From Verrucomicrobiota bacterium (GTDB lineage Bacteria; Verrucomicrobiota; Verrucomicrobiia; Limisphaerales; J093): DNA of 38,942 nucleotides. A program made the position numbers and the translations under genes. The stretch is from positions 1-38,942 of the forward strand of contig JAAYVR010000067.1 in assembly GCA_012517065.1 (NCBI GenBank). The letters run 5' to 3'. The notes below the pieces were generated by a model that saw only the letters and a list, made by a program, of their open reading frames with translations, ran no database searches and had not been told where the DNA came from. This document shows, one piece after another, positions 8,250 through 38,942 of this stretch. How positions within the stretch are numbered: position 1 is the first letter of the stretch; each line of letters begins with the position of its first letter.

Positions 8250-8310
8250 ACCTAACCCGGAAATCTCACCAACCACCCCCTCCGGATTCACCCATGCTTT
8301 CGCTCCGGCG

Positions 8311-8460
8311 AAAACAACGTGTCTGTCCCCATATCTTCATGCGCGGGGTTCCCCGCAGACTTTGGCCAATAACGTGCCTGGATAACCTGCCTGGCACTTC
8401 GTCGGAAACAACGAGCCTGGCACCCTATTTGGGTCCACACCCAAACCACGAGCCTTGCAC
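8311..8460 (-). repeat. Family A intergenic repeat, degenerate copy (A1)
   Basis: Read on the minus strand it contains ATATGGGGACAGACACGTTG (8315-8334) preceded by the GTCTGCGG...CCCC box seen in the other copies, plus GTGCCAGG variants at about 8385-8420. The GCGGCAGC hairpin part of the full element is missing. It fills most of the 281-base gap between the UbiA-like gene and pyrK. Confidence 0.75.
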
Positions 8461-8530
8461 ACTGCATCAACTTGGGCGGGCGACGCAGCATTGACTCGCC
8501 GACAAATACTGACCATCCTCACCAGCGCGA

Positions 8531-14605: not shown

Positions 14606-16711
14606 TCACGGCGTTTTTCGCGCGGACAGGTCGGGACCATTAACCACCCGCCACCAGCTCAGCGCCCGCAATGCCTGCCATTGTCGCACAGCCGCGCTTT
14701 CTGTGGCTGTCGCCGGTCGGTCGGACATCTCGCGCAGCCCCAACACAACGTTCGGTTCGGTGGGGTCCAATAACCAGTCTGGCGTCACGATTGCCTGTGA
14801 GCCGAGTCCGATCTGCGGCCCCGCCAGATCGAACATGTTGCGGCCAAAGGCGTGGTACTCGAAACCGCGTTGCGCGGCCAGTTCAATCATCGTTGGCAAG
14901 ATGTCCGTGTGCGAACCGGCAAGCCTTTTCCCGTCCAATCCCTCGGGCAACACGCCACGCCCGCGCCACAGCATCAGGACGGCCGTTCTTTCATAAGCGT
15001 TTGGGCGTTCATTGACGAACCGGCGCGACCAATGATCGCCCGTTGCAGCAAACAATGTCGTGCCAAGCCGCTTTTCCGCCTCGAGAACAAAACTGCTGAA
15101 GGAATGGTCGGCAAACCACAAATGCCCCAGAACCTTGAAATCGAGCGTCCTGGAACAAATCGGCTTCAAATCTGGCGGCGGTTGTCGCACCCCATAGCCG
15201 TGGCCAAATACATCCGTCGAATAAGGCGGGTGATAACCCGCCGAGAGTATAAGGTTGAAGCTGGGCGGATCGTCCGACACTTTTCCAAGAACGTAGTTGA
15301 ACAACTTGTCGTCTTCGACGCCCCACTCGCGCTTCAGCAGGCCGCCCTCGTCAATGTCGCCCCCGCCGTGCACTTCGTCGAAACCTTGTTCTAGGCAGAA
15401 ATCTCCGAACCGCTGCCAACTCAGGTACCCCGCATAAAAAGCGCGTGTTCGGTAGCCAAGCCGCTTGAAGATTGGCGCAATGCTTGTCGGAAGAGGTGTT
15501 CTGCACGCCGGCTCGTAGTTCACAACCAGCCCCGAATAAGGAAGCCCGGTAATCAATGCACTGACCGAGATCATCGTTCCCGCACCCGCAGGCACAAAAG
15601 CGGGGATCAACACACCTTCCCGCGCCAGCGACCGCACGCCCTCGCTGAGCTGTAGCGATCGATACCGGTCGAGCAAAGGCCATGCGTCGTAGCTTTCCAG
15701 TACCACAAGGAAGACATGTCTTGGCCGTTTCCCCGGCAGCCCCTGTGCAACACGCATCGTCATGCTGTCCAGATCACACCCGCCTGCCGCAGAGGGGAAG
15801 GCGGTCTTCGCCGCGTCCCGGATATCACCGTTCGGCCACAGAACCTGCAGGTTCCTGCCGCGTATCACCTCGAGCTGCTGGCTAATCGCGTATTTCAGGG
15901 CTGAGTACGGGTTTAGAACCAGCTTGTTCAGAACACGATCTTTCGTAACCGCCGCATCCTTCAACTGCACCGGACGTCTCCCGACGGACCCCCGGACAGC
16001 CACCACGGCAACTGCAGCCATGGACAACACCACAATCGCCCGCCCTGAAACCGACCTGATCAAACCTGTCGCGCGCTCCGGATCAATCCGTCCGATGCCA
16101 CACAGCCACTTCCACAACCTCACAAGGGCCACGCAAACAACCGCCATTCCAAACACCGCGGGAATCACAGGGTAACTCTTCCACACGGTGCGCAAAACAG
16201 CCCGCATGTCGTCAAAAACAACCCCCAGAATCCAGTGATTGAAGTGGTCCTTGTACTCCGCGAAGAAACCTATCGCAACCGCTCCAATCAGAGTGGTCAC
16301 GGCCACGAACAGCGTCGCAACCACTGCCCGCGTTGTTTCAGCCAGTGACCGTCTTCGTGCCGCCACTGCAACCAATGTCCCGGCAAAACACGGTAGCGCC
16401 CAATACATCGCCACGCTCGCATCGAACCTCGCCCCGGTAAACAGGCATTTCAGGACCTCCATCCAGTCCGCTCTCGTGCCAATGCTCCCTGCAAAAACCA
16501 GCAACATCAACACCCGTAGCAACGCCAACAGACCAAAAGCAAACAACCAGAACTTCCAATCTTTCACTGATTGCTCGACGAACAACCCCCATCGCCGCTC
16601 GTGATCGATGGCACCACGCGCCGTTGGCGTGTTTCCTCCTTCCCTCTGGCCAGAAACAATCGGTTCTCCGCTCACACGCCGCGAGAGTATCAGGTCGCCG
16701 AACGCGGTCAA
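14606..16711 (-). CDS. LtaS/MdoB-like membrane-anchored sulfatase-fold phosphotransferase
   Basis: Five predicted membrane helices (about residues 52-74, 103-118, 126-150, 184-200 and 224-240) followed by a large outside sulfatase-fold domain: the lipoteichoic-acid-synthase layout. Metal and active-site residues fit LtaS: E339 in VFLVVLESYDAW, the Thr nucleophile T379 in AGAGTMISVSALITG, W432/R434 in YLSWQRFG, and D559-H560 in ATGDHW, then GSHTDILPT. Family members move phosphoglycerol or phosphoethanolamine groups onto envelope glycans; the substrate in this Gram-negative is unknown. The start is uncertain: the frame opens with TTG at 16711, and a GTG at 16675 is also possible; neither has a clear ribosome-binding site. 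Confidence 0.82.
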   Translation of the reverse strand: MTAFGDLILSRRVSGEPIVSGQREGGNTPTARGAIDHERRWGLFVEQSVKDWKFWLFAFGLLALLRVLMLLVFAGSIGTRADWMEVLKCLFTGARFDASVAMYWALPCFAGTLVAVAARRRSLAETTRAVVATLFVAVTTLIGAVAIGFFAEYKDHFNHWILGVVFDDMRAVLRTVWKSYPVIPAVFGMAVVCVALVRLWKWLCGIGRIDPERATGLIRSVSGRAIVVLSMAAVAVVAVRGSVGRRPVQLKDAAVTKDRVLNKLVLNPYSALKYAISQQLEVIRGRNLQVLWPNGDIRDAAKTAFPSAAGGCDLDSMTMRVAQGLPGKRPRHVFLVVLESYDAWPLLDRYRSLQLSEGVRSLAREGVLIPAFVPAGAGTMISVSALITGLPYSGLVVNYEPACRTPLPTSIAPIFKRLGYRTRAFYAGYLSWQRFGDFCLEQGFDEVHGGGDIDEGGLLKREWGVEDDKLFNYVLGKVSDDPPSFNLILSAGYHPPYSTDVFGHGYGVRQPPPDLKPICSRTLDFKVLGHLWFADHSFSSFVLEAEKRLGTTLFAATGDHWSRRFVNERPNAYERTAVLMLWRGRGVLPEGLDGKRLAGSHTDILPTMIELAAQRGFEYHAFGRNMFDLAGPQIGLGSQAIVTPDWLLDPTEPNVVLGLREMSDRPATATESAAVRQWQALRALSWWRVVNGPDLSARKTP

Positions 16712-16734
16712 ACAGCGAGATCATTCTGCAAATA

Positions 16735-17050
16735 AAGTGCCAGGCTCGTTATCTGGGCTTCGCCCACCGAAAAGGTGCCAGGCTCGTTGTTTGGGTTTTG
16801 AGCCCCGATTGCTGCGTGGCCACCATATTGTCCCTTGTTCCGATCCGCGGTTGCCGAAGTCTGCGGAGGTACCCCTCGGATGCAGATATGGGGACAGACA
16901 CGTTGTTTGCGGCTTCCTGCCGATCCGGTTCCAGGCACGTTGGTTGCGCATAGAAACAAAGCGGCAGCAAGCTGCCGCACTCCAAACGCTTCGCGCCTGC
17001 CAACGCCCACAGCATCCGCGGCGGCGCGTGAGAAACCATCGGGATCAGCG
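16735..17050 (+). repeat. Family A intergenic repeat, full copy (A2)
   Basis: The most complete copy. In order: GTGCCAGGCTCGTT twice (16738, 16775), CCGATTGCTGCGTGGCC, CGGTTGCCGAAGTCTGCGG, ATATGGGGACAGACACGTTG (16886-16905), TTCCAGGCACGTTGG, then the perfect hairpin GCGGCAGC-AA-GCTGCCGC (16961-16978) and CTCCAAACGCTTCGCGCC. A 42-base stretch (16956-16997) is identical to 34171-34212. It is followed by a family B element on the opposite strand. Positions 16712-17236 hold no gene I can support. Confidence 0.85.
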
Positions 17051-17075
17051 CGTTCTTCCTTGCAACGGAGTCGCA

Positions 17076-17193
17076 GGGCAGATTTCGCAGCCCGGCGTGG
17101 CTGCAGGGCCGGGTGGGGTGCAAGGGCCGGGGGCGTTGCCCGTCAGGCGACTTTGGTTCCGGCACGCCGGGCTGGGGAATATGCGGGCTAAAC
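17076..17193 (-). repeat. Family B inverted-repeat element (B1)
   Basis: About 110 bases bounded by a perfect 12-base inverted repeat, CAGCCCGGCGTG (17088-17099) and CACGCCGGGCTG (17163-17174), with ATATGC/GCAGAT flanks. Its core at 17126-17162 is a 37-base perfect match to the reverse complement of 38458-38494. It is MITE-like in size and symmetry and carries no gene. Confidence 0.8.
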
Positions 17194-17236
17194 CTTGCCA
17201 AAAGGCAGTCGGGATGTAATTGTTCAGAAGCAAGAT

Positions 17237-18028
17237 GTGATCACGAACCCAGCCAGAGCTGCCGGTTTTAGCAACGTGGATGGCCATCGGCAGGCGTGCG
17301 CCGTTGTTGGGACGGCGCAACCAACTTCGCTGTGTGCTTTCACGCTGATCGAGTTATTGGTTGTGATTGCCATCATAGCGATTTTGGCGGGGATGCTATT
17401 GCCCGCTCTTTCGAGGGCCAAGGAACGGGCGCAACGGATGACCTGCTTGAACAACATCAAGCAGCTAACGTACGCGGTCCTGATGTATGCCGATGACAAC
17501 CGGGACAGGTTTATGCCTGACGGCGACGATGATCCGCATTGGGTCAAGCTGCCTTTCCGCGACATGCTTCGCACGAATTACTCGGTCACGCGCCCCACGT
17601 TCTATTGTCCGTCAAATCCGAAGTGGAACCGGGACGATTTCTGGACATGGCCGGACAACCAGAGCTGTGTGATTGGCTTTGTCTATCTTGTGGCCGAGCC
17701 GTCGTATAACAATAACACCAGTCTTTACCCAAAGCCGATTTCGCATCAGCCGATATTCGCTCAACGGAGCACGGACAACGCGTACTATCCGCTGATCTGG
17801 GCTGATATGAACCGGAAGCTTAACGGCTCATGGATGCGGCCTGGCGATCCGGACCCGATGGTGCGCGGGGTGAATCATTTCGATTATCGGGGCAAACAAC
17901 CCGCTGGATCGAACGAGGGATACCTCGACGGTCACGTCGAATGGGTGCCCGCAGTGAAGTTCGTCAGCAAACCAAAAATGGATTTCGGCGGGCTTCAGTT
18001 GTTTTTCTACGCTGGTAAGGACAACTGA
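17237..18028 (+). CDS. Prepilin-like protein with type IV pilin/type II secretion N-terminus
   Basis: An exported protein with a class III leader: a short N-terminal part, then [19 protein letters not shown] with the methylation glutamate at position 5 of the mature chain. The residue before the cut is Ala rather than the usual Gly. After the helix come [17 protein letters not shown] and [20 protein letters not shown], the standard opening of the large Verrucomicrobia/Planctomycetes prepilin-like family, and near the end [11 protein letters not shown], the 'DG' motif of that family. These proteins are abundant in the phylum and of unknown function; they are not major pilins. The start is unsure: GTG 17237 or GTG 17276 (21-residue leader); the frame itself opens inside repeat B1. 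Confidence 0.85.
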
Positions 18029-27655: not shown

Positions 27656-27881
27656 GACACGAGGTTTGCAGGGCTGGTGGCGCCTGTCGAGTCGAACCCT
27701 GCGCATCGGAATGGCTACAGGGAGTTTTTACATCCAGCGTTAACGCGGAGCTCCGGCGGCGATCGGTTGTCCCATGCACCTGGCGATGTCACCACCGCGG
27801 CGCGTGAGCAACTACCAGCCTGTCACTCTGGTCATCGCACTGATTTGCCAGAAGGTGTGGTCTGCCCGATACGCGGTGTGG

Positions 27882-29558: not shown

Positions 29559-30710
29559 ATGCGTTGTTGTCATTGGGTGAGGAACCTCGGGTGGAAATCG
29601 CATGCAACCGGCGGTCAAGATCAAAGACGTTGCTTGCTCATTCTGTCGCTTGCATGCCTGAGCGGTTGGTTTGATGCGTCCGCGGCCGGGCAAGCGCTCG
29701 ACAGTTCGAGCACAGGTACCCAGGTTGTCAATGTCATTGTCATCAATTTCGATCCCGTTCTCAAGACGCGGAACAACGTCAGGCTCCACGAATACATGAA
29801 ATGGTCCGACCCATGGCAGCTCACAGACAAGATGATTGCCGACGCGAAGCTTACCAGCGGCGGTTATGTGGATTACCGTGTCGTGGAGAAGATCGAATAC
29901 GATGGTTTCACCACCTTTCGCGATGGTTTCACCTACACCGAAGAAGCCTTTCTGCACATGTGGGAGAACGACCGCGCCTCCGCCAACCCGGGCATGACAA
30001 GCTTCAAATGGCTCTTTAGGAAGTTTGATCTGGAGGCCAAAATCCGTGAAAAAGACGTGCGCGAGATTTGGCTCTGGGGCGCACCTTACATGGCATGGGA
30101 CGAGTTCCATTGGAAGATCCCGGGCGACAAAATCCCCTACCAGACCGATAATCCATGGTTTTACCGCCCCTACGACATCCCGGATATCGGGCGCACCATC
30201 TGGATCATGGGCTGGAATTACGAGCGCGGCGAAGGCGAGATGCTGGAAAGCTACTGTCACCGGATCGAAAGCGCTCTCGCACTCACAGTGGGCCGGGGCG
30301 TGTGGGACCACAAACGCAATCCAAAGAATGCCTGGAATCAGTTCACCCGTGTGGACAAGGATTTCCCCGGCCAAGCCGAGGTTGGGAGCGTGCATTTTGC
30401 GCCGAATTCGGTCAGCGACTACGACTGGAGCAATACCAACTCGGTGTGGACCTACGCCGATGATTGGTTCACCTATCCGGTCTTGCCCCGAAAGAAAAAA
30501 CTGTTGAACGCCGCGACAGGCGGGTGGGACGGCATCGTGAATCATCATCTTTGGTGGATGAAACATCTGCCGCACAACCCCGGAACCACCGACGGCTTTT
30601 ACAACAACTGGTGGCAGTACATTGTCAACTACGACGAAGCAATTCGAAGCTTACCACCTCCGGGGGCGACATTCCGCAAGGCGAAACACGCCATGTATTC
30701 AAATCAGTGA
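29559..30710 (+). CDS. Unknown Trp-rich secreted protein
   Basis: I do not recognise a named family. Signal peptide core CLLILSLACLSGW with cleavage near DASAAG. The mature protein (about 340 residues) is rich in Trp, Tyr and Asp; notable blocks are VNVIVINFDPVL, RDGFTYTEEAF, REIWLWGAPYMAWDE, IWIMGWNYERGEGEMLES, CHRIESAL and, near the end, GGWDGIVNHHLWWMKHLP. HH, ERGEGE and repeated acidic residues could form a metal or catalytic site, but this is a guess. The start is uncertain: ATG 29559 or the GTG at 29553; no ribosome-binding site is seen. It is a single-gene unit between oppositely directed neighbours. Confidence 0.72.
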   Translation: MRCCHWVRNLGWKSHATGGQDQRRCLLILSLACLSGWFDASAAGQALDSSSTGTQVVNVIVINFDPVLKTRNNVRLHEYMKWSDPWQLTDKMIADAKLTSGGYVDYRVVEKIEYDGFTTFRDGFTYTEEAFLHMWENDRASANPGMTSFKWLFRKFDLEAKIREKDVREIWLWGAPYMAWDEFHWKIPGDKIPYQTDNPWFYRPYDIPDIGRTIWIMGWNYERGEGEMLESYCHRIESALALTVGRGVWDHKRNPKNAWNQFTRVDKDFPGQAEVGSVHFAPNSVSDYDWSNTNSVWTYADDWFTYPVLPRKKKLLNAATGGWDGIVNHHLWWMKHLPHNPGTTDGFYNNWWQYIVNYDEAIRSLPPPGATFRKAKHAMYSNQ

Positions 30711-30715
30711 GGGTT

Positions 30716-30775
30716 AACCTCCATACTTCGCAGCCCGGCGTAGCCGAAACCAAAATTGCCTGACGGGTACTGCAC
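30716..30775 (+). repeat. Family B element, half copy (B2)
   Basis: TTCGCAGCCCGGCGTAGCCG then ACCAAAATTGCCTGACGGG matches the first half of the B elements (one TIR arm plus core). The second arm is missing and the sequence passes directly into family A copy A3. Confidence 0.7.
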
Positions 30776-30779
30776 CGGA

Positions 30780-31066
30780 TGCAGTGGCCGTTGGTAGGTG
30801 CGAAGCGCTCGGAGTGCGGCAGCTTGCTACCGCTTTGTTTTTATGCGCAAACACCGTGCCTCGAACCAGATCGGCATGACGCCGCAAACACCGTGTCTGT
30901 CCCCATATCGGCATCGCCGGGTACCTGCACAGAGTTCGGCAACCGCCGATTGGAACAATGGATAATCTGCGGGCCACGCCGCAATCCGGGGTCAAAACCC
31001 AAACAACGAGCCTGTCCCTCTATTTAGGTCCACAACCAGACAATGAGCCTGTCACCCTGTTCCGAC
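30780..31066 (-). repeat. Family A intergenic repeat, full copy (A3)
   Basis: Same order of parts as A2 on the minus strand: GAGCCTGTCNC motifs twice (31009, 31045 region), GCCACGCCGCAATCCGGGG, CAACCGCCGAT, the GTGTCTGTCCCCATAT block (30889-30908) and the GCGGCAGC-TT-GCTACCGC hairpin (30816-30833, one mismatch). With B2 it occupies 30716-31066 of the 555-base gap 30711-31265, which has no gene I can support. Confidence 0.82.
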
Positions 31067-33664: not shown

Positions 33665-34028
33665 AGAATGCTCTTTTTGACGCTCGACTAATTTGAAGCA
33701 TGTTTTGCGCCGCGCAAGCGCCATTGGGACAGATGTTGCGATTTGATTCTCTGGATAGAATACGTAGCCCCCGGTAGCAACGGACGCCGGTCGCTGGAAG
33801 TCCGGTCTCTTGTTGAGTTCTATATTGCTGGGCAGCAGGAATTTTGGTCCCCCGACCAACGTTGTCGCCTACTAACGTGACGCCTTTCATCAACCACGGC
33901 TGAGCGACACCGCGTGTTGGCTGCTCCGTCACCACTTCGTCCTTTGGCGACCGAATACGGCGGCAAATGAGTTGATTCAGTACGTGCTGCCTCCCACCCA
34001 GGTAGATCCGACAAGGACACGAATAGAG
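33665..34028. other. Upstream region of the PQQ propeller gene, no gene seen
   Basis: 364 bases between the propeller gene start and repeat A4. In-frame codons run upstream to 33859 but lack a ribosome-binding site and would bury the signal peptide. I see no clear promoter, hairpin or RNA gene. Confidence 0.5.
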
Positions 34029-34350
34029 GGACAGGCTCGTTATTGGGGTGTTGCCCCCGGATTGCGGCGTGGCCCGCGAATTGCCTCATGCTCCAATCCG
34101 AGGTTGCCGATGCCTGTCGAGAAACCCCTCGGATGCCGATATGGGGACAGACACGTTGTTTGTGCACAAGACAAAGCGGCAGCAAGCTGCCGCACTCCAA
34201 ACGCTTCGCGCCCACCAACGCCCGCTGCATACGCGGCGGCGCGTGAAATACCATCTGGATCAGCGCCGAGATCGAATGAGGCCATATGGGGACAGACACG
34301 TTGCTTTGTAGCTCATGCCGATATGGTGCCAGGCACATTGTTTCCTGAAG
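34029..34350 (+). repeat. Family A intergenic repeat, extended copy (A4)
   Basis: Contains ACAGGCTCGTTATTGGGG, CGGATTGCGGCGTGGCCCG, GAGGTTGCCGATGCCTGTCG, ATATGGGGACAGACACGTTG (34139-34158), the perfect hairpin GCGGCAGC-AA-GCTGCCGC (34176-34193), then a second ATATGGGGACAGACACGTTG (34284-34303) and GGTGCCAGGCACATTGTTT. 34171-34212 is identical to 16956-16997 over 42 bases. Confidence 0.85.
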
Positions 34351-38303: not shown

Positions 38304-38429
38304 AACAAGGCGATAGATTCCCCTGCCGATTCCGATTGCCCGGGACGCGGCAGAAAACCGGTGGCGGAAAGATCATAGGCAGAAGAATAGTTGGCAGAAA
38401 GATGGCGGGTAAAACACTTGTCGGTCCTT

Positions 38430-38545
38430 AGCCTGCATATTTCCCAGCCCGGCGCCGCCGGAACCAAAGTCGCCTGACGGGCAACGCCCCCGGCTCTTAC
38501 CCCCGGATCTTCAGACACCGCGGGCTGGGAATATGCCTGCGACAC
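38430..38545 (+). repeat. Family B inverted-repeat element (B3)
   Basis: GCATATTTCCCAGCCCG (38435-38451) and CGGGCTGGGAATATGC (38521-38536) are inverted arms differing by one extra base. The core 38458-38494 is a 37-base perfect match to B1 on the other strand. It lies in a 639-base gene-free end region (38304-38942); 38304-38429 holds nothing I can name. Confidence 0.82.
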
Positions 38546-38615
38546 CGTCGCTGGGAAAAGCGCCATGATCCAGCCCCCACTGGACGCAACCCTGCGGGGG
38601 CAAGTTCCAACCACA

Positions 38616-38870
38616 TCAAACTGTTCCGCCTAAAGGCGGGACCCTAACGGCCGCGGGCGCAGCATCGCCCAAAGTGCAAGCCAACCGATCGCCGCTAGAG
38701 TTCCGCGTTTACGCGGAACACAGGCAGTTCACCGAACAGTGCTGATGCTCACGTTCATGAAACTGTTCTGCCTAAAAGGGGGGACTCTAACGGCCGCAGG
38801 CGCGGCGCCGCCCGATGCGCAGAGCAACCCATCGCTGCCAGACTTCCGCCTTTACGCTGAAAACTGAAAG
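38616..38870. repeat. Family C tandem repeat, two units
   Basis: Two diverged copies of about 110 bases whose starts (AAACTGTTC at 38618 and 38760) are 142 apart. The first has two intact hairpins, CCGCC-TAAA-GGCGG (38626-38639) and GTTCCGCG-TTTA-CGCGGAAC (38700-38719), linked by CTAACGGCCGC; in the second copy both hairpins have decayed. Confidence 0.75.
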
Positions 38871-38902
38871 CTTTCTGGCCCTCATTGTGGTACCCCAGCG
38901 CT

Positions 38903-38942
38903 GCGGCGGATGCAATGGGCGGTGGCAGGCGCGAAGCGTTTG
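38903..38942 (-). repeat. Family A repeat, copy cut by the window end (A5)
   Basis: On the minus strand CAAACGCTTCGCGCCTGCCA then GCATCCGCC matches the 3' part of A2 closely. The rest of the copy would lie beyond 38942. Confidence 0.7.

Follow-up and report, generated by a model that had tools for sequence, protein, structure and literature searches.

A mosaic intergenic repeat element of a Verrucomicrobiota bacterium shares its junction motif with the ends of a multi-copy Y1 transposase gene

Architecture of the element

The window, the whole stretch of 38,942 nucleotides analysed here, is contig C195 of a Verrucomicrobiota genome (G000; 5.26 Mb in 298 contigs). The element under study occupies positions 16726–17191, between a sulfatase-domain gene on the minus strand (14606–16711) and a prepilin-like DUF1559 gene on the plus strand (17195–18028). 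In the initial annotation it was divided into a repeat family A and an adjoining family B in inverted orientation. The two families do adjoin (A at about 16726–17050, B at about 17048–17191); the inversion is a labelling choice only, because the modules M1, M2 and M3 run collinearly along a single strand, giving A and B a common reading direction. The composite is a mosaic M1-M2-M3, in which M3 is B, rather than a two-part unit. A is itself composite, made up of two or three copies of a motif m and the bodies M1 and M2, with m as a separator between most modules of the A side.

All parts of the element are read on the plus strand. The left edge is formed by the first m motif (16726–16757, CTGCAAATAAAGTGCCAGGCTCGTTATCTGGG), which scores 16.1 bits with a weight matrix trained only on transposase ends; homology with the sister species G001 ends just before it, at 16725. 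A second, tandem m-like copy (16770–16796, GGTGCCAGGCTCGTTGTTTGGG; direct repeat D4, 78%) is located about 38 bp downstream and is followed by the M1 body (16797–16879). Then come the second m motif (16880–16911, ATGCAGATATGGGGACAGACACGTTGTTTGCG, 13.7 bits), at which alignment breakpoints cluster genome-wide, and a degenerate third m-like copy (16917–16949, CCGGTTCCAGGCACGTTGGTTGCG), present in some of the aligned copies and absent from others. The M2 body (16950–17047) contains the hairpin GCGGCAG-CAAG-CTGCCGC (16961–16978), followed by CACTCCAAACGCTTCGC. The element closes with M3 (17048–17191), a candidate MITE-like unit consisting of a long palindrome that ends in AAATATGCGGGCTA, the 24-bp arms of which (17077–17101 and 17162–17186) pair in the DNA fold. 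Rfam gave no match for any RNA family in the window.

Further copies are found on both strands of the window. Two are mirror images on the minus strand, as had been annotated: A3-B2 (30710–31055), containing M1-m-M2 and a truncated M3, with its m at 30998–31029 (28.3 bits), and A5-B3 (38428–38942), which is cut by the contig end. The fixed layout claimed for A5-B3 holds in part: the copy exists, but 327 bp of other repeat DNA separate its M3 from its M2, so that only the compact form has a fixed boundary. A4 (34017–34343, plus strand), arranged as m-M1-m-M2-m with an m of 32.5 bits at 34017–34048, had been described as a diverged A-B layout; M1, m and M2 are present, but there is no recognisable B. 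A1 (8296–8464, minus strand) is a degenerate M1/m copy, also lacking B, with an m match at 8403. Two reported identities, of 42 bases (16956–16997 and 34171–34212) and of 37 bases (17126–17162 and the reverse complement of 38458–38494), are exact. A separate repeat, GCGTTAACGCGGAACTC, forms an inverted pair at 27737–27769 and 38682–38714; it belongs to the family that expanded copies carry as an insertion between M2 and M3.

Copies and module order in the genome

Searches of the genome with A and with B return hundreds of candidates for each. In a sample of 1.92 Mb (57 contigs of G000), 154 clusters are present, with 102 copies of M1, 132 of M2 and 100 of M3. Extrapolation to the whole genome gives about 420 clusters, a figure that leans high because the sampled contigs were picked for carrying hits. 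The hairpin core of M2 alone occurs 370 times genome-wide with up to two mismatches, versus zero times for a reversed-pattern control.

The pairing of A and B seen in the window extends to the genome. A is present within about 1 kb in 84 of the 97 B clusters of the sample (87%), where about 14% is expected by chance; 81 of these 84 clusters have their modules on one strand and 79 have them in the order M1-M2-M3. The idea of one mobile unit survives as a preferred compact form, but the unit is a mosaic: 61 of 80 M2-M3 pairs lie in one collinear alignment, and 19 are split by 120 to 760 bp of extra modules. The A-B boundary, whose consistency had been named as the check on that idea, is accordingly that of the dominant compact form, with a minority of expanded forms. 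In alignments of long copies, an optional module X of about 245 bp is located between M1 and M2, and 270–480 bp, including a palindromic repeat GCGTAAACGCGGAAC, lie between M2 and M3; extending 30 loci by long flanks and aligning them with MAFFT yielded no information.

Many contigs end in these sequences. When 57 contig starts were examined, 20 carried transposase ends and 20 carried A/B modules, which explains much of the fragmentation of the assembly. The same figures could be read as a sign that the composite is itself an artefact of metagenome assembly. This is hardly credible: the copies differ by 10–25% and have unique flanks, and the same families occur in the separately assembled sister genome.

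The junction motif

The motif m is 32 letters long, reads approximately AAATAGAGkGACAGACACGTTGTTTGGG, and alignment ends accumulate at GATATGGGGACAGACACGTTGTTTG. The exact 12-mer GGGACAGACACG occurs 499 times in G000, 41 times in the sister species and 0–2 times in 18 further relatives, while its reversed control gives 0 or 1 copies. A weight matrix for m was built from 55 transposase-end sites, none of them from A elements. Applied to the window, this matrix finds five matches above 10 bits (at 8403, 16726, 16880, 30998 and 34017), all within A elements; 20 dinucleotide shuffles of the window give no match above 10 bits, the best reaching 5.0 bits. In the 1.92 Mb sample it finds 269 matches above 10 bits and none in the reversed control, and after retraining on those 269 matches it finds 592, again with none in the control. 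The number of m copies in the genome is estimated at 1,600.

Neighbouring copies of m are overwhelmingly in direct orientation, with 335 direct and 16 inverted neighbours within 1.2 kb in the sample. Their spacings are discrete, near 37, 110–120, 140 and 250–260, and the commonest spacing genome-wide is 30–39 (107 spacings). The direct intervals contain M1 in 92 cases (median length 84), M2 in 50, X in 18 and tandem m in 116; the others include unclassified intervals, part of which resemble the right end of the transposase element by eye.

The initial annotation had likened the repeats to REP-type sequences. In the strict sense this fails for GGGGACAGACAC, which has no GTAG, no conserved hairpin and a direct arrangement. 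The GTAG (or GGAG) tetranucleotide at the palindrome foot is absent from the consensus atgccgATAtgGgGACAGaCACGTTGTTTGgG. The m of A elements folds no better than shuffled sequences and its arms do not covary, which rules out m as a classical REP hairpin; only at the left transposase end does m fold (-5.5, compared with a mean of -2.3). Inside the m of A elements, GGGGACAG fits the published motif GGGGWSAS, and the transposase ends, reading GAGGGACAG or GAGTGACAG, are a near match. A literature search found no paper describing m, and its sequence matched unrelated eukaryotic primers only.

The Y1 transposase gene and its ends

The guessed link with a RAYT-type Y1 transposase gained support from the data: a gene of this kind is absent from the window, but is present in dozens of copies elsewhere in G000, and its ends carry the same motif. 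A profile search with PF01797 gave eight matches, at least five of them cut by contig ends. A protein search found 26 N-terminal copies, a search with the C-terminal part at least 28 copies (the right ends), and a DNA search at least 40 left ends; most of these ends are at contig ends. No complete gene can be read in one piece in G000, because the contigs break inside it. In a relative of the same family (G006) there are 63 matches, many in open frames of 385–400 amino acids.

The protein is assigned to Y1_Tnp in Pfam. For the full-length G006 relative, the best NCBIfam match is REP_Tyr_transpos, at 57.2 bits and below the cut-off of 80, and in NCBIfam scans the protein is nearer to RAYT than to IS200 TnpA. 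RAYT-like (TnpA-REP class 2) transposases are marked by HuH and Y...NP motifs: the fragments from G000 contain NHFHI, and the C-terminal fragment begins with PVRG, consistent with NPVR; the G006 relative reads YIDLNAVRAG. In subclass 2.1 the C-terminal extension is HTH-like; the protein here has a C-terminal extension, in which Pfam gives no HTH match, and neither DnaA_C nor HTH was found there. Among solved structures, nothing better than weak matches, with E near 0.05, was found, to a Y1 transposase of 140 amino acids. Codon comparison of 26 C-terminal copies shows 65 synonymous and 12 non-synonymous changes without stops (84% synonymous, about 24% expected), a pattern that points to a gene kept functional. 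Selection is not clear in the N-terminal codons (13 synonymous and 25 non-synonymous in 10 copies), which lie at contig ends, where errors are possible.

Left ends (n=30) and right ends (n=27) of the transposase element are conserved up to and around m; the left ends read GTTTGACTCCCGGAGTGTGTTGTGCGATTTTACCCCCAAATAGAGGGACAGACACGGTATTTGGG and the right ends reach GGAACAAATAGAGTGACAGACACGATATTG, with two copies diverging immediately beyond. The element is arranged as m-tnp-m, with left and right m in direct orientation, the same motif and orientation as in the A elements. Contigs C203, C78 and C83 contain internally deleted versions in full, with a single m on the left and a pair of m on the right, all in direct orientation. 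An identical deletion junction with different flanks is shared by C78, C83 and C77. A transposase-less version has thus moved to no fewer than three places and provides direct evidence of trans mobility; ancestral duplication of the deleted element is unlikely, because the flanks are unique.

These ends bear on a different reading, in which m belonged to an earlier repeat family and is a preferred landing site of the transposase element, which would insert next to it without having spread the A-B copies; these would have been multiplied by recombination, slippage or another transposase. Upstream of their conserved left end, transposase copies have partly similar flanks, as they would after insertion into repeats, and the tandem 37-bp arrays of m, which make up the commonest spacing class, could stem from slippage. 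We consider this reading distinctly unlikely. An m-like sequence, GTGACAGRYTC, occupies the equivalent upstream position next to related transposases of other genera (G005, G010 and G002), both ends of the deleted derivative have m at each of three loci, and relatives from outside the genus have almost no m.

Related Y1 transposases of other genera were seen in G017 (L153, L162), G010 (L154, L163) and G005 (L161). In G005, two direct copies of GTGACAGRYTC lie in tandem some 70 bp from each other; next to the G017 transposases, inspection by eye shows no clear m-like motif. G000 itself contains two more Y1_Tnp genes. The second is full-length and IS200-like (L061, contig C124, 1859–1501, minus strand; 89 bits over about 119 positions), in surroundings rich in GCGTAAACGCGGAAC and CCCGCCTTTAGGCGG repeats, the repeat that also separates M2 from M3 where copies are expanded. 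The third (L088, contig C169, 6700–8200), with an open frame of 306 amino acids, lies among tandem copies of a repeat GAGCGCGG..CGCCGC that is related to module X.

Comparison with the sister species

The nearest relative examined, G001, has about 90% identity in genes and also contains a partial transposase. At the locus of the element itself, the left neighbour is joined directly to another gene in G001, with no element in between; in G000 those two neighbours are on different contigs, each beside an A/B copy (window position 16725 and C286:14267). Insertion followed by recombination between copies fits this difference, and deletion in G001 would be an alternative reading of the same sequences. 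Elsewhere the two genomes differ by presence and absence of whole segments. An m-M2-M3 insertion in contig C42 of G001 corresponds to an empty site in G000 (C226:18429–18461), and m-bearing segments at two sites of C226 and at C166 of G000 are absent from G001. The number of m copies differs too, with three in G000 against one in G001 at C80 and C114.

The initial annotation had also called the unit recombinogenic, and this receives modest support: 35% of synteny breakpoints (n=26) are within 100 bp of m or of an A/B copy, versus 4.8% of random positions, an enrichment that is suggestive only, because the G001 contigs were chosen partly for carrying A/B. No exact excision scar was found, nor, at about 10 sites inspected, any convincing clean target-site duplication, intergenic turnover blurring most sites.

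Some of these differences could be due to ordinary recombination or slippage between direct m copies, as in solo LTRs, the transposase having acted on A-B elements only in the past or never. A single m in G001 stands where G000 has m-M1-m (C80/sC22, with a similar contrast at C114/sC600), and at C80/sC22 the single m joins the left side of one G000 m to the right side of another; tandem M2-m-M2 forms exist as well. Slippage between m copies explains tandem and single-m states, but not new loci, and sites are present or absent between the species at C226, C166 and C42 of G001. Module order is, moreover, maintained over hundreds of loci. As an account of cassette turnover as a whole we therefore find it unlikely, and favour mobilisation in trans by the transposase.

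The module bodies

Forty genomes were searched; matches to the M2 part of the element occur in 20 of them, and a more stringent pattern of the core in 6. Over 12 genomes the stem is 98.8% paired, with three pairs changed on both sides (7 cells), a covariation score reached by none of 500 shuffles. The M2 core is an older, order-wide REP-like repeat in which the palindrome is kept by compensatory change. Elsewhere the hairpin core is not accompanied by m. In two genomes from other families of the order (L092 and L094, in G003 and G013) it appears by eye to form inverted, REPIN-like pairs, with an AAAG-side foot instead of GTAG.

M3 behaves otherwise. Among 88 copies its arms show no covariation beyond shuffles, although they pair, and B as a conserved RNA was rejected on this ground; an automatic RNAalifold run that missed the arms was set aside. 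A MITE-like unit in decay would be expected to lack covariation. B has a recurrent right end at GCGGGCTA, with no clear target duplication. No m is present at the compact M2-M3 junction, so m alone does not explain the mobility of B. A different element of about 280 bp in G001 (C1:1283–1567), with ends TAGCCCGGAAATCTCACC and AAATATGCGGGCTA and absent at the corresponding site of G000 (C79:28699–28704), has a right end like that of B, and the two may therefore share a transposase.

When the bodies M1, M2, M3, X and Z were compared with the transposase end loci, no similarity was found, and they are therefore not derivatives of the visible parts of the transposase gene; an origin of the A-B bodies as gene deletion derivatives is ruled out for those parts.

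The composite might instead be a selected regulatory or structural element (a terminator, a 3' RNA structure, or a gyrase or nucleoid site), with transposition incidental. Its placement is suggestive in this respect, since intergenic positions account for 148 of 151 clusters, with about twice as many in convergent as in divergent gaps (45 versus 22) at equal total gap length, and the M2 hairpin covaries across the order. Against this, sites vary between the sister species, whose nucleotide identity is about 90%, the arms of M3 covary no more than shuffles do, a conserved hairpin is lacking in m, and Rfam has no match in the window. We regard selection as the primary explanation as improbable.

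Proposed mechanism

The patchworks look like passengers of the transposase rather than two unrelated repeats, because they are joined at the motif that marks the ends of the transposase gene. The A-B composite is probably one of about 400 non-autonomous modular elements that owe their mobility to a Y1 (HUH) transposase of the RAYT/TIRYT branch, present in many copies in the same genome and acting in trans. For Y1 enzymes of the IS200/IS605 and TnpA-REP types, cleavage of single-stranded DNA is established (PMC6006769). The enzyme encoded here most likely recognises m, or m together with a foot, and would cut single-stranded DNA at or near it; circular intermediates and a choice of strand may be involved. 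Segments would be inserted next to m or at new sites, and any DNA between direct copies of m could be handled as an element, which would explain why M1, X and M2 occur as m-bounded cassettes. With direct m on both sides of a segment, cassettes would accumulate head to tail, their gain or loss presumably being catalysed rather than arising by slippage between m copies. The palindromic, MITE-like B may have joined M2 and would now travel in the compact M2-M3 form, carried along.

A further-reaching version of this model is possible but doubtful. In it the Y1 transposase of the RAYT/TIRYT branch runs a cassette system reminiscent of integrons: at direct, non-palindromic 32-bp sites, non-coding cassettes would be inserted, excised and rearranged head to tail into intergenic arrays, with older repeats, namely the order-wide hairpin and a MITE-like unit, recruited as cargo.

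Comparison with known systems

The A-B elements are not canonical REPs. They share with REP, REPIN and BIME sequences and their RAYT (TnpA-REP) enzymes the non-autonomous, intergenic nature of the repeats, the mosaic clusters and a dedicated Y1 transposase with a similar terminal motif, and the best protein match here, below its cut-off, is the NCBIfam family REP_Tyr_transpos. They differ in lacking a GTAG/GGAG tag and a conserved palindrome in m, in the direct pairs, in the cassette bodies of 80–250 bp and in the multi-copy transposase, where a REP/REPIN system would have one that is single-copy and inherited vertically; RAYTs have been described as single-copy and domesticated (PMC8049555). 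The mosaics provide a natural case of how BIME-like bacterial repeats are assembled.

With IS200/IS605 elements and their palindrome-ended derivatives, the system has in common a high-copy Y1 HUH transposase and internally deleted derivatives that keep their ends, but the protein is closer to RAYT and longer (about 385 amino acids in a relative), and the ends have no conserved subterminal hairpin except in the left m. B resembles bacterial MITEs (RUP, NEMIS, ERIC and the enterobacterial RU-1/RU-2) in being short, intergenic, palindromic and non-coding, while differing in that it is mostly fused to M2, a one-sided partner fixed in identity and order, and is a candidate MITE-like unit only. As a functional analogy only, the joining of separate cassettes at a single recurring site of constant orientation recalls integron cassette arrays; here the sites are the 32-bp m, the bodies are non-coding repeats, there is no integrase or attC, and a Y1 transposase would act as the enzyme.

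Among known kinds, the TIRYT or TIRtron comes closest, likened by its flanking motif and Y1_Tnp domain: Y1 transposase genes flanked by terminal inverted repeats (TIRs) with a GGGGWSAS motif (PMC3733652). Both have a Y1_Tnp gene, a motif fitting GGGGWSAS (GGGGACAG here) and dispersed, partly clustered copies of the flanking repeat. The motif is direct here and inverted there, and dozens of transposase copies with about 1,600 motif copies bounding cassettes contrast with TIR families that were termed moderately abundant (PMC3733652). TIRYTs largely correspond to TnpA-Y1 subclass 2.1, which is RAYT group 1, reported as having no recognisable REP partner or REP-like flanks (PMC6006769). In the genome described here, a transposase related to RAYT group 1 is multi-copy and accompanied by a very abundant cognate motif in a direct, cassette-bounding arrangement, and m offers a concrete DNA substrate for biochemical tests of this branch.
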